Source of the DNA: a virus
IMG/VR virus record: IMGVR_UViG_3300042141_000261
Location: 1-46,549 of that record
Direction: 5' to 3' (one strand)
DNA length: 46,549 bases
The notes below the pieces were generated by a model, which saw nothing but the letters and a program-made list of their open reading frames with translations, was not told where the DNA came from and did not search any database. Position 1 is the stretch's first letter; the number at the start of each line of letters is the position of its first letter. Of the stretch, positions 3-46,549 are shown one piece after another. The translations under genes were made by a program, and so were the position numbers.

Positions 3-3000
3 TTTAATTTAAATTGGAAAAATAACCAAATAACCCCACAACAAAAACAACAAGCTCTACAACTATACTCTCAATATCTTGAACAGAATCCTAACGGAAC
101 TGTAGAACAATTTAAGAGTTGGGTTGATGAGTTTAATAAAAATAAACATTTACAATTAGCTTCAGATAATAACTTATTTAATGAGAATAAAACTCTTGCT
201 AATGCTGTATATGAAGCTTTAGGGTTTAAAACTAAACCAGATGTAATATTACCTATTGGTACAAGTGGTAGTGGTAAATCTACATTTATAAAATCTTTAC
301 CACAAAAAGATTTAGTAGTTATAGAACCTGACGCTATGAGAGTAGAATTTACAGGGGATATAAATAACAAATCTAAAGATAAAGAGATATATGAAGAAGC
401 TGCTAAAAGAGCTATAACTGCAATTAAACAAGGTAAACAAGTTGTTTTTGATACTACTAATTTAACTAAAGATAAAAGACTACCTTTTATTGAAGCTATT
501 AAAAAAGAAATACCTAGTGCTAATATCCAATACAAGTTAATGGAATTAAATCCAGAACTTGCTAAACAAAGAATAAAAGCACAAATAACAAGAGGAGAAA
601 ATAGAGCTAATGTATCTGATTCTACAATAGATAGACATGCTGAATCTTATAAGCAAATGCTTGAAGATATTCAATTAGAGCCTATAACTAATTATGAAAT
701 AACCCCACAACAAAAACAACAAGCTCTACAACTATATTCTCAATACTTAGATACTATATTCCCTGATAGTAAAGTAAAGGATATTGTATATAGAGGAGGT
801 AATTTAGGTGTAAATCAGCCACAAAATGTTGAAGCTTTTACTACAAGTAAATCATATGCTGAATATAGGGCAGAACAAAATAATACTCAAGTTTATCCTG
901 CTGTTTTAAACATAAAAGATTCAAAACTAGTTGATAAAAAAGAAACAAGAACATTATCTTTAGATAGGGATGAGTTTCAATATGAAAATTATGGCTTTAC
1001 AGATAATAAAGATCAAACTAAGCAAGTTGGTAATTTTTATACAGTAAAAGAAAATAATAGACATATATTAGGAACTAAACAAGATATAGAAGGATTTAAA
1101 GAGTTTGTTAAACCTAAGCAAACTAAAAAAGTAAAACAGAAACCTGTTGTATTAGACATATCAAATATAAATCCAAGTGCAACTTTATCCGATATTGCTA
1201 AACTTCTTAACACAAGTGATATCAAATTTGATTCTTTAGCAACAGCTGATACAAAAGTTAGATTTTCACTTACCCCGGAATTACAATCAACTGTTGATTA
1301 TGCATTAAGACAATCTAATGAAATTCAACAGAAAATAGTAAAGAGATTGTTTCATCAAGCTCAGTCCATTAAGGAAGAAGTTGGTTCATTAGCTGCAGGA
1401 TTTCAAGGACCAATTGTTGTTCTTAACGAAGAGAACCACGTATACTATAACTTATTAGATACAACTGATACTTTCCGTTCTACTACAGAAAGAATTAAAG
1501 GAAAGCTTTCTGAAGAAGACATGTTCAATAAGAAATTAAATATTGATCTTGGCAATGACTTTGATAAGTTATTGCAAGGATTAACTTCAGATAAAAAATT
1601 AGATGAAGTTTTTTCTCAAATGAAAGTTCTTAAGAGAGAACAAGCAGAAAAAGCTTACTTGCAGTTGCAAGAAAATCTTAAAGAGATTACAAGAGGTGGT
1701 GGTGTTGCTGTACCTCAGGTTGTTGTTTATGACCAAAAGTCAAAGACTGCCGGTTCAATTGATATTCTTGTTATTTTACCAGATGGTAAATTAAGAATTG
1801 TAGATCTTAAGACCAGTAAAAATTCTGTAAAAGATATGGTTTTAAATGAGCAATCTAAACTTAAGTATGATAAAGAGTACGAACTAGGGCCGGATAGTGA
1901 TCTTAAAAAAGAAGGAATTGAAAGATTATCTACAAGAGCTCAACAAGGAACTCAAGTAAATATTTATAGAAGAATGCTTGAAAATATGGGTTATGAAGTA
2001 GATATGAGTGAAATGGGTGCTTCTACTTTTCATATTCAAGTTGGTGTTAAAGGTAAAGATGCACAACAAGAATTTACAGGTGATTTTAGATCTGATGAAT
2101 GGATTGCTCATCCTGTAAGTCAAAATAGTCCGTATGTAAATATTCTTGTTCCAAAAAATGTTGACTTAATTTCATTAGAAGATTTGACTAAAAATATTGA
2201 TATAGCAGCAGATAAGGCTGTTGACTGGGATTCAGAATTAAAAGATGATGAAAAAATACCAGAAGATACAGAATTTTCTGATCCATACATTGAGTATGAA
2301 GTTATTACACAAGCTTTAATGAACTATAGACTAGCTTTACTTACAAAACTTAAAGCGATAGATCAAATTAAAAGCTCTATCTATATGGACAGAACTAAAG
2401 AACAAACAGAAGAAAATATTCTTAACGCTTTATCTGCTATTAATATGGCACTGGCTGAGGGTCCTAATTCAAGTTCAGCTTTATTTACAGAATTGTTACG
2501 AGATGCTTTAAAACAGATTCAAAGTTTTACAGATTATATAAATGATCCAAATAATTTTAGCAAACCAGAATATATTACATATGTTCTTAACTTTAACAGA
2601 TTTATTAAAACTTTTGAAGGTTTATATTCTGTAACAGATCTTACTGGTATTAATGCTACACAAAAATCTTTAATCTTACGTTTACAAACTCAATTAAATA
2701 ATTTAGGGGTTAGTAATTCAACTCGAGATGGTGTTATTAATGATGCTATTACAAATTATGTAAAAACACAAATTAAAAATTGGTCTTCTAGAGATGATTT
2801 AACTGATGATGTTCTTAATGATTTGATGAAGCATGCGCGTGATATAGGTGATATGGAATTGTCTACTGGTGATTTGTCGACATCAAGAGATACTATTCTT
2901 GCAGTAATGGATAAAATATATAAAGTTAAAAAACAAGAACTTTTAGATCGTGTAGAAACAAGAAATAGACTTATTGCAGGTTTATCTTCAAGATTGCAAA

Positions 3001-29961: not shown

Positions 29962-30344
29962 TTTTTTTTAGATTTTCTTTTAGGATTTATTTCAATTATC
30001 ACACCTGGTTTATTTTTATTATATTCATAATCAAAAAAAACAGGTTTAATCAAATCTGAATTATCATCAGTGATCCATCCATAAGTGACCATATCATCTT
30101 GAACAGTTTGTGCAGGATTAATATAATCAAACTTATGTCTGTTACCTCTAATGAATGTCATTCCAATTTCAACAGGTAAATCAAATTTTGCTAATTCAGC
30201 TTTAAATTTTTCTGCATATTCTAAGTAATATTTTTTTGAATTCTTTCTGTAATTAACAACTGCTTTACTTGCAATGAAATATTTTCCTGTCCAACGCCTT
30301 CCATTTTTGGATGATGGCACATTACCCGGTATAAAAAATTTCAT
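29958..30344 (-). CDS. rusA: RusA-like Holliday-junction resolvase
   Basis: 128 residues. The start FFIPGNVPSSKNGRRWTG, then FDYINPAQTVQDDMV and GWITDDNSDLI, give the spaced Asp series and DDN of the RusA fold, which cuts four-way junctions symmetrically. It shares one base with the primase stop region upstream. Role: resolving recombination or replication junctions before packaging. Confidence 0.8.
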   Translation of the reverse strand: MKFFIPGNVPSSKNGRRWTGKYFIASKAVVNYRKNSKKYYLEYAEKFKAELAKFDLPVEIGMTFIRGNRHKFDYINPAQTVQDDMVTYGWITDDNSDLIKPVFFDYEYNKNKPGVIIEINPKRKSKKK

Positions 30345-31309
30345 TATGTATATAGTATAGTTTTTAAAGTTTTAAATAAAATAGGGTTTACTTTATCATA
30401 TCCAAATTCTTTTAAAGAATCTGATATATCCTTACTCATTTCAAGAAAAGTACCATCAATATTATAAACATCTTTGTATTTTTGAATAGCATTTAAACCT
30501 GCTTTATCATTATCAAAAAGAGTTATAATTTTTTTATACTTGAGTTTTAAATTTTCAATTATATAGGCTTTGATTAGTGTGTTTTCACTATCCGGAGCTA
30601 TAACATCTAAATTATAACCAAAACCTTTAAGACATATTGCATCTTTTAAAGAAGAGCAAATGACTAAATAAGGTTGTGTATATTCCAGTTGATCTAAACC
30701 TTGTGTATAAGATTTGATCTTTAAAAATTTATTTTTCTTAAATGGTTGATATATTTTATATACTTCATCAGAATTATCGCAATAAGCATAAATATGTTCA
30801 GTTTGAATACTTAATTTAGTATTTGCATCTCTACAAATTTCAAAACTCAACACGGGTTTTATATTATATTTTTCAAGTAAAGTTTTACCAATTCTATAAG
30901 AAAGCCAATATTTTGCGTCATTAGTATTCCAATCTCTAAAAGTTATATTTGTTACTTGCCATTTAGAGTCAAAATTTAATTCATAGTTTGTAATAGTGTT
31001 ACTTTTACCAAAAGTATTGTAATCACTTATAATTTTATTACACGCCGCGGAATAATCAATGCTAAACATTTCCATTACTAATGTAATCTTATCACCATAT
31101 TTTCCAGATGAAAAGTCTTTAAAATAGTATTGGTTTTCTTTCCTATTTACGTAAATACAAAAACTTGGCGTTTTTTCTAAAGGATTCCAAATAGATTTAA
31201 GTTTTATAGATTGACCTGTAAGATCGTCTTCTAAATTTAAATAGTATTTAAAAGCCCAGTAACTTGGTACTTGATTTATTTCAAAAATAATATTTTTTGT
31301 AGTATACAT
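30344..31309 (-). CDS. DnaG-type primase with TOPRIM domain
   Basis: 321 residues. The N-terminus resembles a CHC2-type domain without its Cys (PSFCIYVNRKENQYYFKDFS, then GKYGD), followed by a TOPRIM domain with FDNDKAG near residue 265 (D-x-D). The first TOPRIM motif reads LVICSSLKDAICL, where Ser stands in place of the usual Glu, a change I recall from some phage primases. The protein is short, with no helicase part. Makes RNA primers for PolB; may depend on the DnaB-type helicase at 33273. Confidence 0.78.
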   Translation of the reverse strand: MYTTKNIIFEINQVPSYWAFKYYLNLEDDLTGQSIKLKSIWNPLEKTPSFCIYVNRKENQYYFKDFSSGKYGDKITLVMEMFSIDYSAACNKIISDYNTFGKSNTITNYELNFDSKWQVTNITFRDWNTNDAKYWLSYRIGKTLLEKYNIKPVLSFEICRDANTKLSIQTEHIYAYCDNSDEVYKIYQPFKKNKFLKIKSYTQGLDQLEYTQPYLVICSSLKDAICLKGFGYNLDVIAPDSENTLIKAYIIENLKLKYKKIITLFDNDKAGLNAIQKYKDVYNIDGTFLEMSKDISDSLKEFGYDKVNPILFKTLKTILYT

Positions 31310-36669: not shown

Positions 36670-37767
36670 TTAGTAATTTATATATTCTATTTTTGACTTA
36701 TCCAATCCATCAAGTGCTTTTTCAACCCATATTTCATCAACGGAATCTTTATAGCAAAGTATATGACAAGTTGATATTTGTTCAGGGCTTAATCTTAATA
36801 ATCTACCTATTCTTTGTGCAGATTTTCTTTCATTACCATAGGCATGCATAATAATTCCAACTTTAAGTTGTGGTATTGAAACACCCTCATTCAATTGCAT
36901 TACGCAAGATAACTTTTTAATTTGTCCTTCTTTGAATAATCTTAAATTTTCTTCAGAGTTAGCATTATTTGAATGATAACTATATCTACACATTCTATCT
37001 GCTTGTTCTTGGGTATTAGCAAATATAATACACTTATCATTAATATTATTTAGAATACCAAGTAAATAGTCTTCTTTAGTTTGGTAAGCCATTAAAGCTC
37101 TCATTCTAAAAATAGAATAAAACTTTTTTTGTCCGGCACTTTCCGCTTCAGCTAAAAGATTAGATAGTCTAGTATAATCATTGTATTCTGAAGTGAACCA
37201 TATTTTATTAGTTTTGGTTTTCTTTTTGAGTGTATTTAATTTATTTAAACTAATTTTGTGTACTATAATTTTATAGTCGTTTAATATCTTTTGATCAGTG
37301 GCTTCATCCACTGAAAATCTAAAAACAACCGGGCAGTGCTTTTCAATTAGTTTATATTTTTCACTGCTTTTTACAACAGGAAGTGTTCCACTTAAACCTA
37401 ATATTTTATTATGATATGCATTTAAAAAGTTCTCATGTTGAGGTAGAATATTATGACATTCATCTAAACAAACAATATCATATTCATTAGGATCTTTTTT
37501 ATTTAATGAAAGATATGTGGTAAACTCTATATGATCTTTTAAAGATTCAACATTCATCTTTTCAAGTTCTGTATTCCAAGAATCTTTAACTGAGAGTTTT
37601 GGTATAACCACTAAAACTTTTAAAAAGACATTGTAGTTGTTTATTAAATATTTTATAGCAATCCTAGTTTTACCAACACCCATTGAGATACCAACACTAC
37701 ATTTTTTATAATTTTTGATAACATTTAAAGCCTGTTCTTGTACTGAATCTTTATTTGACATAAGCAT
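36670..37767 (-). CDS. SF2 DNA helicase
   Basis: 365 residues. Motif I ISMGVGKTR, motif II DECHN, motif III GLSGTLP, motif VI QRIGRLLR; the two RecA-like halves are complete, and no extra domain is present. DECH-box SF2 translocases of this size are part of crAss-like replication sets, acting on forks or recombination intermediates. Its start is 13 bases after the tRNA-Arg gene. Confidence 0.85.
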   Translation of the reverse strand: MLMSNKDSVQEQALNVIKNYKKCSVGISMGVGKTRIAIKYLINNYNVFLKVLVVIPKLSVKDSWNTELEKMNVESLKDHIEFTTYLSLNKKDPNEYDIVCLDECHNILPQHENFLNAYHNKILGLSGTLPVVKSSEKYKLIEKHCPVVFRFSVDEATDQKILNDYKIIVHKISLNKLNTLKKKTKTNKIWFTSEYNDYTRLSNLLAEAESAGQKKFYSIFRMRALMAYQTKEDYLLGILNNINDKCIIFANTQEQADRMCRYSYHSNNANSEENLRLFKEGQIKKLSCVMQLNEGVSIPQLKVGIIMHAYGNERKSAQRIGRLLRLSPEQISTCHILCYKDSVDEIWVEKALDGLDKSKIEYINY

Positions 37768-37780
37768 TTAATTTTAAAAG

Positions 37781-37852
37781 TAGTTCTACCTGGAATCGAA
37801 CCAGGAATAACAGATTAGAAATCTGTAGTTATATCCGTTTAACTATAGAACT
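37781..37852 (-). tRNA. tRNA-Arg (TCT)
   Basis: A 72-nt cloverleaf: acceptor AGTTCTA/TAGAACT, D stem GTTA/TAAC, anticodon stem ACAGA/TCTGT with loop TTTCTAA (anticodon TCT), T arm CCTGG-TTCGATT-CCAGG, discriminator A, no encoded CCA. It reads AGA, the favoured Arg codon of these genes, and sits inside the leftward replication operon. Confidence 0.92.
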
Positions 37853-43352: not shown

Positions 43353-43635
43353 TATTTCAAGGGTTTAGGGCTTAAGAATATATTCGTATCTTTGTCTCAA
43401 TAGACCCCTTCTGTACCGTTCCCCGGTTGACGGACTCTCTGTTCACACCGTGCCTGTGGCACTACAGTGACTGGTTGTTTACCCACCTTCAACTACCAGA
43501 AAGTTTTTCTCGTTGAGAGCGGGTCCGGATCTAAAAAAGAAAAATCAAAAACTTTTCTTTATGAACCTTTTACCATACCAGTCTCACAACTGGAGTTAAT
43601 TGGGTTTCCAAGATGTCAAAGAACAATTTCTTTTG
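43353..43635. other. Non-coding G+C-rich gap between DUF551 gene and tRNA-Met
   Basis: 283 bases with no credible gene. Bases 43386-43560 are much more G+C-rich than the phage average and contain GTGCC/GGCAC and paired GGAC..CTCTC with GAGAG..GTCC, so a local RNA fold is possible. A plus-strand TATCTTTG box lies at 43386. Of unclear origin; perhaps acquired with the neighbouring island. Confidence 0.4.
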
Positions 43636-43709
<74 letters not shown>

Positions 43710-44173: not shown

Positions 44174-44284
44174 TAGTCAGGACAGGATTCGAACCTGTAT
44201 GTTTACTCGTTTAGGCAATCAGACGAACAACTCTGAACCACTTAACTTTCAGCGGTCTGCGTCTACCAATTCCGCCACCTGACT
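44174..44284 (-). tRNA. tRNA-Leu-like gene, abnormally long (possible pseudogene)
   Basis: 111 nt. Acceptor AGTCAGG/CCTGACT, Leu-type D arm GCG...CGC with GGAATTGGTAGA, and T arm ACAGG-TTCGAAT-CCTGT are normal. The 59 bases between D arm and T arm are about 24 too many for a Leu tRNA. In them CCGCT/AGTGG or CTGAA/TTCAG can pair and TCGT/ACGA could form a variable arm, but no canonical 7-base anticodon loop forms. TAA (GTTAAG) and CAG (TTCAGAG) are candidate Leu anticodons; neither can be settled by eye. Confidence 0.6.
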
Positions 44285-44297
44285 ATGCTTTGTTTAA

Positions 44298-44540
44298 TTA
44301 AAACCTTTTAAAAGTATTAGATTTAAACAACTTTTCATTTTGTAGTTTAGATTCTCTTTTGCAGAGAATAAATATTCTAACAAAAATAAGATCAACAACC
44401 ACTAATATTGTAAGCCACAAAACAAAATCCCATGTTGAATAAGTATGGAATATTGAATATGCAATTGAACATACAATTAAAAATGTTGTAAGAATTATCC
44501 CAATGACTGAGCATAGGATTGGAAAGAAAAAACTTTTCAT
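44298..44540 (-). CDS. Two-helix small membrane protein
   Basis: 80 residues with two hydrophobic helices (about 4-28 and 38-60) and a basic C-terminal tail RESKLQNEKLFKS. Unknown role. It lies between tRNA-Leu-like and the structured RNA at 44583. Confidence 0.5.
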   Translation of the reverse strand: MKSFFFPILCSVIGIILTTFLIVCSIAYSIFHTYSTWDFVLWLTILVVVDLIFVRIFILCKRESKLQNEKLFKSNTFKRF

Positions 44541-44582
44541 AAGATTTTTAAAACTTAAAGATTAAAAAAAATTGTCTAAAAA

Positions 44583-44723
44583 AACTACAGCGCTATGTTT
44601 CAGTGGCCTGAAAACTTAAAATATCTCACAAACAAAATGAGATAAAAACCTTTTTTAAGTTTTAAGCCTATGTAGGTGCAATAAGTGATCAGATCTCGTA
44701 AACACCCCTCATGCGCTGTAGTT
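44583..44723 (-). ncRNA. Structured small RNA, unknown class
   Basis: Closed by an 11-bp perfect stem AACTACAGCGC/GCGCTGTAGTT (44583-44593 with 44713-44723). Inside: a 6-bp hairpin TTTCAG/CTGAAA at 44598-44613; an 11-bp stem AAAACTTAAAA/TTTTAAGTTTT (44611-44621 with 44653-44663) that holds a hairpin ATCTCA/TGAGAT (44623-44643); and GGTG/CACC (44675-44678 with 44703-44706). On the minus strand two T-rich runs follow the closing stem, as in a terminator. No open frame. Orientation leftward, like neighbours. I do not recognise the class. Confidence 0.6.
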
Positions 44724-44738
44724 ATTTTAGACTTTCAA

Positions 44739-45332: not shown

Positions 45333-45587
45333 TTAAGGTTTTTTTATTATTTCTTCTTTTTTATTAAGTAAACTTTGTAGAAATTCATCTGACGTTGGAA
45401 CATCATTGTTACAACCCAAATAAGCCGATGTTTTTTTAATAGATTCAACAGTGTGCTCATTTCGTGCTATTTCCATAGCAAGAATATTACATCTCATTAA
45501 ATCAACATCATCTGTAATGCCCTTTTGAAAAAGAATCCTATACAAAAACATTAATGTAATTACATCTGAAATCAAACTTGTTTTCAT
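45333..45587 (-). CDS. Small hypothetical protein
   Basis: 84 residues, helical: a mildly hydrophobic N-terminus (SLISDVITLMFLYRILF) and a charged helix. First gene downstream of the large structured RNA, whose final hairpin is only 17 bases before this ATG; the two may share a transcript. Function unknown. Confidence 0.5.
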   Translation of the reverse strand: MKTSLISDVITLMFLYRILFQKGITDDVDLMRCNILAMEIARNEHTVESIKKTSAYLGCNNDVPTSDEFLQSLLNKKEEIIKKP

Positions 45588-45604
45588 TTTTTTTTACACA
45601 TTAT

Positions 45605-46549
45605 TACAACTTGCCAGTTGGGATTTAATTGTTCTTACACTTAACGGTAGTAAGATTCACCTTGTTAAATTAGTAACTACTTAGAGTAGTTTAACGTACA
45701 CACCATGAGTATTTAAACTCTGAGGGTTTTAACTTGTGTACTTATTCATTAAATAGTAGCATAACCTTCGTCAAGATTATTTGTTTTTACTATTTAACTA
45801 GCCAACCTATGGGTTGTTAATGCCAGGAAGTATCCAACCTGACAAAACTTACTTAAACATAACTCATAGAGCTTCATAAAGTTTGCAACCTTATATGAAG
45901 ATACTTGGATAAGTAGAAAACACCTACTTGTAAGAACGCTACATTCATTATCCCTATTCTTACTTTAAGGATAACTATCTGGTTTAACTCACCAGCATCT
46001 AAGGTTTGTGTTTTACACCTAAACTTTGATATAAGCTCTGTTAGATTTTGCTACCAATGGTACTAACATAAGTTTTACAAAGAACTGGTGCTCTCAACAA
46101 CTTGAGAAGTTATTAAGTTTTTTGTCAAGGTCTTCCAACCTAGGTGTAAGATAATAAGTATCCTATACTTGCATTGTTTCATCAGCACTTATGCTATGCT
46201 AATATAGCCACCTTGGTTTGGGTATAGCTATATATATTCTATTATGTAACGGCAGATTCACTCTTGTTTTAGTTAGTGTTTTTATGGGGGTGTTGCCATC
46301 CACAATTTAAAACACTCATAACCAAAAAATTATGAATTTATTTGCACCTAATTGTAGTCCTCTGCTGGTAAACTTGACCTATGTTCAGCTAGCCTAGTCA
46401 AGCACGTTATAACGCGTCACTGGACTACAATTAAGGTACATCACCCTCTGCACTCAGTATGCTTATCCTGTATTTCTACATCACGGATAAGTTAAGACAC
46501 TACACGGTCACATACTGCCTGACCTTGGGAATCAGGAATGGTGCATTAT
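45605..46549 (-). ncRNA. Large ornate structured RNA (GOLLD/ROOL-style candidate), 5' end outside window
   Basis: 945 nt without a gene, filled with complementary segments. Examples, plus-strand coordinates: 11 bp 46350-46360/46422-46432; 9 bp 46013-46021/46141-46149; 9 bp 45750-45758/45788-45796; 8 bp 45761-45768/45773-45780; 8 bp 46275-46282/46309-46316; 7 bp 46455-46461/46511-46517; 7 bp 45696-45702/45735-45741. Interleaved helices 45930-45936/45957-45963 and 45948-45953/45969-45974 form a pseudoknot. The minus strand is chosen because two helices (45821-45844, 45761-45780) have G-U pairs there that would be A-C on plus, and because a stem at 46463-46490 is capped by GAAA. Large size, structure and tRNA neighbours match GOLLD/ROOL RNAs of phages; membership is unproven. 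Confidence 0.65.

Follow-up and report, generated by a model that had tools for sequence, protein, structure and literature searches.

A probable mosaic of structured RNA domains at the GOLLD locus of putative crAss-like phages

A gene-free, structured region at the edge of a phage contig

What kind of RNA, and how many separate elements, might occupy nearly a kilobase without genes at the end of a phage contig? The window, that is, the whole stretch of 46,549 bases analysed here, is an IMG/VR viral record of freshwater source type representing a phage fragment, the viral contig being cut at position 46549. Its genes include those for a DNA polymerase, a primase, helicases and a ribonucleotide reductase. 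Relatives of the helicase at 36670-37767 come from Bacteroides crAss phages, Flavobacterium psychrophilum phages and Cellulophaga phages, and on this ground the phage is probably crAss-like. An earlier note had described the end of the window as a gene-free, heavily base-paired RNA of the minus strand. Indeed, no open reading frame of at least 60 aa overlaps 45588-46549, and the same 962 nt recur at 100% identity in L082, a contig from another sample that continues past the window end. Extended rightward in this way, the region remains gene-free over a total of ~1.25 kb (L082 9136-10391) between a 112-aa gene and an 84-aa gene, all co-directional, with another copy of module C (see below) just outside the window edge.

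Folding of 45588-46549 gave −252.9 kcal/mol for the minus strand, with a z of −6.4 over 20 dinucleotide shuffles; the plus strand of the gene-free region has a z of −3.6. The 200-nt windows inside the gene-free part are patchy (z from +0.3 to −3.3), so that stability alone is weak evidence and the covariation among homologues is decisive for the structured RNA. The choice of the minus strand holds, with modules C, B, D, A and Z all lying on it and the neighbouring genes running in the same direction (Table 1).

Searches of the whole window against Rfam 15, introns, riboswitches and ribozymes included, returned the tRNAs and chance-level matches only, and those of the gene-free region at E<=10 only chance-level matches. 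Direct blastn of the region against cultured phages found nothing, and queries with the B, A or C frames gave chance-level matches only. Along the sense strand of the region, scans for terminators, which like those for promoters assume other bacteria, detected no terminator-like site. Homologues were reached through the helicase gene: a search starting there yielded L004, L005 and L080, whose matches lie on the helicase strand and upstream of that gene; the conserved blocks A and B then served as search patterns, together with a third motif, ACAACTGARTGCAGAKGG. Spliced alignments were built by us around conserved anchors picked by sequence patterns, which makes the anchored positions look more conserved than they are but leaves the covariation of P2 unaffected. 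Between the modules the sole homologue, L082, is identical, and about half of the window stretch lies outside covariation support. In these parts, two candidate contacts are visible at the sequence level: the interleaved complementary stretches UUAUCC/GGAUAA and GUAAGAA/UUCUUAC at 45930-45975 (minus strand), and the complementarity of 45828-45834 to 45900-45906.

Elsewhere in the window, a second gene-free structured stretch lies at 44530-44735 (CTACAGCGC ... GCGCTGTAG ends), where overlapping 200-nt windows have a z of about −3.5 on both strands. A 111-nt tRNA-like gene with a long internal insert is found at 44174-44284 (Rfam tRNA, 40 bits; ARAGORN without report).

Table 1. Features of the RNA region and its surroundings, with ribozymes of related loci (coordinates of the window unless another contig is named)
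Feature	Coordinates	Strand	Description	Basis
Module C	46444..46545	-	three-way junction with loop-to-tail pseudoknot	sequence, mapping, covariation
C P1	46541-46545/46449-46453	-		
C P2	46532-46536/46518-46522	-	loop UUCCCAAGG, 46523-46531	
C P3	about 46511-46517/46455-46462	-	short variable insert	
C pseudoknot	46444-46446 (GGG)	-	GGG with CCC of the P2 loop	
Long hairpin	46343..46440	-	18-bp helix 46422-46440/46343-46360 enclosing smaller stems	MFE fold and sequence
Module B	46171..46200	-	nearly invariant H-type pseudoknot AGCAUAGCAUAAGUGCUGAUGAAACAAUGC	pattern search, covariation
Hairpins H2 and H3	46128..46165	-	3' of B; H2 46147-46165, H3 46128-46141	homologue folds
Module D	46083..46123	-	hairpin, loop pairs with its own 3' flank	five distinct sequences
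Module A	45687..45746	-	GUACAC...GUGUAC helix, inner GAGU/ACUC	homologous to GOLLD 5' segment of sister phages
Module Z	45592..45661	-	hairpin UCUUAC/GUAAGA plus AACUGGCAAGUU	ends 4 nt before the next gene's ATG
First gene 3' of the RNA region	45333..45587	-	84 aa, unknown	open frame, also in L082
tRNA-Met	43635-43709	same as RNA region		tRNA search of the window
tRNA-Arg	37780-37852	same as RNA region		tRNA search of the window
Pistol	L105 2664-2725	same as C or B module		
Hatchet	L139 1172-1310; G037 30306-30438	same as C or B module		

Covariation supports the fold of module C

Comparison of homologues indicates that module C folds compactly into a three-way junction, which a pseudoknot closes. 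Its frame reads UUAAUGCACCA-P2(stem-UUCC[C/A]AAGG-stem)-CAGUUGUAAU-[insert]-AUUACAACUG-A-GUGCA-GA[G/U]GG. Among 29 spliced homologues, 98.6% of the cells are paired and 14 of the 22 pairs show compensatory changes on both sides; none of 500 shuffles reaches the observed values, and sliding the partners brings the pairing down to 28-48%. The stem of P2 exists in a dozen sequence versions, and almost all of them pair fully. The loop and the tail change in concert, UUCCC occurring with GAGG in 72 and UUCCA with GAUGG in 11 of 83 instances without exception; the corresponding pseudoknot pair is C-G in the former and A-U in the latter, consistent in 83/83. In addition, the four G-U-type pairs of P1 and P2 all read U-G on the sense strand, and the C-A counterpart is absent. 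An expanded version of C has P2 opened and the helices GUGG/CCAC and CUGAUUAA/UUAAUCAG added, with variable tips, and a frame similar to C, termed M, is present at about 16 loci.

The fold of C bears on a TGCACC/GGTGCA pair (46540-46545 with 46343-46348) that had been suggested to close a larger domain. This pair is probably not real, because the homologues pair UGCAC at 46541-46545 with GUGCA at 46449-46453 as P1 of module C, and because GGUGCA at 46343-46348 closes the local 18-bp helix with 46422-46440.

Modules B, D and Z

Module B was found by exact pattern in 21 viral contigs, as a single copy in 16 of the 27 records examined, and has no occurrence among 84,980 genomes of bacteria and archaea. 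Near-matches with 1-6 mismatches were missing from the first set of loci, and two variants were later found in L225 and L241. In stem 1 (S1), one pair is G-C in eight, C-G in seven and A-U in two cases, and all 136 cells are paired. Putative compensatory variants of stem 2, collected with a relaxed pattern, were rejected, since the non-GCAU matches proved to be chance hits in coding sequence; stem 2 is thus invariant and outside covariation support. Global alignment around B is uninformative because the flanks are non-homologous. The same two hairpins, H2 and H3, follow B in most homologues by inspection, with differing stem sequences. Further RNA elements lie in two contigs: L094, which holds both B and C, encodes a phage tmRNA (2049-2452, minus strand, 72 bits), and L090 has, by eye only, a tRNA-like element without a normal D arm at about 2000-2060 (minus strand), ~60 nt after B.

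The pseudoknot of module D comprises two pairs of the types CG/UA and CG/UA/GC, with 9 of 10 cells paired over the five sequences. The element Z is also located 5' of an ATG in L141, L202, L218 and L238, giving five contexts in all. Modules C and B of the relatives have no family match in Rfam 15. Altogether, compensatory base changes, which the earlier note had named as the check on its helices, are present in modules C, B and D; together with the predicted pseudoknots in C and B, they demonstrate by comparison of sequences that these domains are conserved at the RNA level.

The same site holds divergent GOLLD RNAs in sister phages

An nhmmer profile built from six local GOLLD 5' regions recognises module A with an E-value of 5.3e-15, over 60 of the 554 profile positions. 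The module is ~90% identical to L004, L084 and L085, and block A occurs in five stretches. By contrast, neither the window nor L082 has a match to the covariance model RF02032 at E<=1, and a local profile of the GOLLD 3' domain finds nothing in the window; this domain is absent from both. Sister phages, as far as sequence comparison goes, hold GOLLD at this very site: divergent copies lie at the corresponding locus of L004, L010, L084, L085, L171, L218, L015 and L219. RF02032 gives full-length matches below its gathering score of 150 in L010 (132 bits), L004 (88.8 bits), and L084, L085, L171 and L218 (86-104 bits), whereas L219 and L015 are added by the local profiles. The GOLLD family appears to extend beyond what the current Rfam model detects. 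In L171 and L219, a C module stands directly on each side of GOLLD. Across phages, this locus is occupied by GOLLD, by GOLLD between flanking C modules, by a mosaic that includes a GOLLD fragment, or by C alone. The freshwater-1 RNA (RF02979) is also found near tRNAs of the same phages (L004 9880-9942, L101 1793-1854 and L105 668-729, that of L105 being just under the gathering score). For ROOL, cmscan at E<=10 reported none in the region, and RF03087 matched 0 of 26 records at E<=1, a search without a positive control.

The proposal that the region is either a divergent GOLLD or ROOL or a new class is therefore answered in part: new domains are present and are joined to a GOLLD fragment in a mosaic, and membership in either family is not supported by the covariance searches. 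Likewise, a conserved structured RNA region on the minus strand of a phage with tRNAs stands, but a single unitary giant RNA does not, because the domains occur separately elsewhere, often directly 5' of a gene. One long transcript might still form a stand-alone, trans-acting particle like GOLLD, in which other domains have replaced the GOLLD 3' domain. The GOLLD locus of the sister phages, the presence of block A and the lack of an internal terminator-like site (by scans assuming other bacteria) agree with such a particle, and GOLLD and ROOL make RNA-only cages (PMC12286853). However, it seems unlikely in view of the missing 3' domain that defines GOLLD, of the modules found separately elsewhere, and of the mere ~60 nt of the GOLLD 5' domain that are recognisable.

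Module C is widespread and often close to start codons

The C motif (ACAACTGARTGCAGAKGG) is present in at least 120 viral stretches, many of them contigs of 100-125 kb, and the large contigs have one C locus with one or two copies. The flanking genes are mostly co-directional with C, at ratios of 115:10 upstream and 117:13 downstream. The distance from C to the ATG is at most 80 nt in 41 of 111 cases, with a cluster at 29-60 nt and a median of 137 nt.

This co-directional leader position close to start codons would also suit a cis-regulatory RNA of the early operon, either a ligand-binding leader or an antitermination element of the put/EAR type, and the invariance of B resembles, by analogy, that of a binding pocket. 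Nevertheless, the downstream gene is not constant, a conserved terminator switch is lacking and hypervariable inserts are unusual for such elements, and we give this account little credence. In the small version, that of L105, B is followed by a terminator-like hairpin, which would suit a separate small RNA and counts against the mosaic explanation favoured below.

More doubtful still is self-cleavage of the operon transcript by C and/or B acting as new ribozymes. Both have small, strictly conserved cores with pseudoknots, and the same loci carry Pistol (L105), Hatchet (L139, G037) and hammerhead-like (L217) elements, but C and B show no match to a known catalytic core, and neither the tandem pair of C nor C beside GOLLD needs cleavage. 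Pistol and Hatchet are situated on the same strand as the C or B modules, at 0.5-1.1 kb upstream of them. The element in L217 (CTGATGAG...CGAAAC) directly follows the C motif and has no Rfam report at the gathering score.

Inserts in the third helix of module C are exchanged among phages

The tip of P3 in module C is a hypervariable insert that is swapped among phages, 101 inserts falling into 82 clusters. In 13 pairs the insert is common (76-100% identity) and the 400-bp flanks lack similarity, whereas L091 and L096 have both flanks in common and different inserts. One cassette family occupies the P3 frame in L152 and L195 and, in L154, the second frame of expanded C; another is found in different frames of L140 and L218. 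Free sharing of inserts between frames is supported by these few cases only. On either strand, the inserts exceed shuffles in stability by a modest margin (mean z of −0.88 sense and −0.95 antisense). As metagenomic contigs may contain chimeras, the shared inserts could in part be assembly chimeras, a reading weakened by the insert pairs of 76-99% identity that stem from different samples. Hence, at the level of the contigs, the domains are shown to occur in many phages in differing combinations, with the insert of the third helix of C exchanged. A DNA-level recombination site similar to attC, in which folded single-stranded DNA accepts cassettes, might produce such a conserved frame with exchanged inserts, but it is highly improbable given the usual single locus with one or two copies per genome, with neither a cassette array nor an integrase noticed, the four U-G pairs on the sense strand described above, and the sufficiency of plain homologous recombination across the conserved frame.

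A proposed model and comparison with known systems

Overall, we favour a mosaic structured-RNA region in the early operon of a crAss-like phage as the best explanation, which is probable as a whole. The identity of the region as a mosaic of recombining RNA domains in a leader or intergenic part of the early operon is very likely; the functional part is put forward tentatively and is rather doubtful. We propose that independently folding, recombining RNA domains form a string that would be transcribed together with the downstream genes. Module C may serve, chiefly in cis, as a compact boundary element for a neighbouring structured RNA or mRNA, and could define or protect ends as an exonuclease block or a processing signal. 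Such a role is suggested by the cluster of C at 29-60 nt before start codons and its place beside GOLLD, and by its resemblance to the loop-to-flank pseudoknots of exonuclease-resistant RNAs; however, not every copy of C is near a start codon, given the median of 137 nt. The whole string might be the equivalent of a giant phage RNA, assembled locally.

A further reading, which is possible though short of probable, holds that giant RNAs of a plug-in type are built from a shared kit of frames (C, expanded C, M and others) with interchangeable tip domains. Each frame would then be a conserved helix with a tertiary contact whose tip takes an interchangeable domain, and each phage would possess a composite RNA of its own, at a site that GOLLD occupies as well. 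Modules C and B represent well-supported predicted RNA structures that are new to Rfam 15 and present in numerous crAss-like phages, all uncultivated. There are few documented cases of whole domains being exchanged between RNAs, and the locus may make it practicable to ask what GOLLD and other giant phage RNAs do.

Among known systems, ROOL (RF03087) is likewise a class of large structured phage RNA, but its model matched none of the 26 records (E<=1, no positive control). The region shares more with GOLLD (RF02032): both are large, phage-encoded and structured, the locus is the same in sister phages and near tRNAs, and part of the local GOLLD 5' domain has its homologue in module A. However, the 3' domain is missing here, and the other modules are unrelated to GOLLD and are found in its absence in most of the genomes searched. 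In exonuclease-resistant RNAs (xrRNAs), a hairpin loop of a three-way junction pairs with the 3' flank. Module C follows the same general idea of a junction plus loop-to-3'-flank pairing, but has no sequence relation to xrRNAs and is likened to them by its predicted fold. Finally, the mobile regulatory stem-loop cassettes of T4-type phages are also structured intergenic elements shuffled between phages; whereas those are promoter cassettes, the elements described here would combine a conserved tertiary RNA fold with hypervariable inserts.
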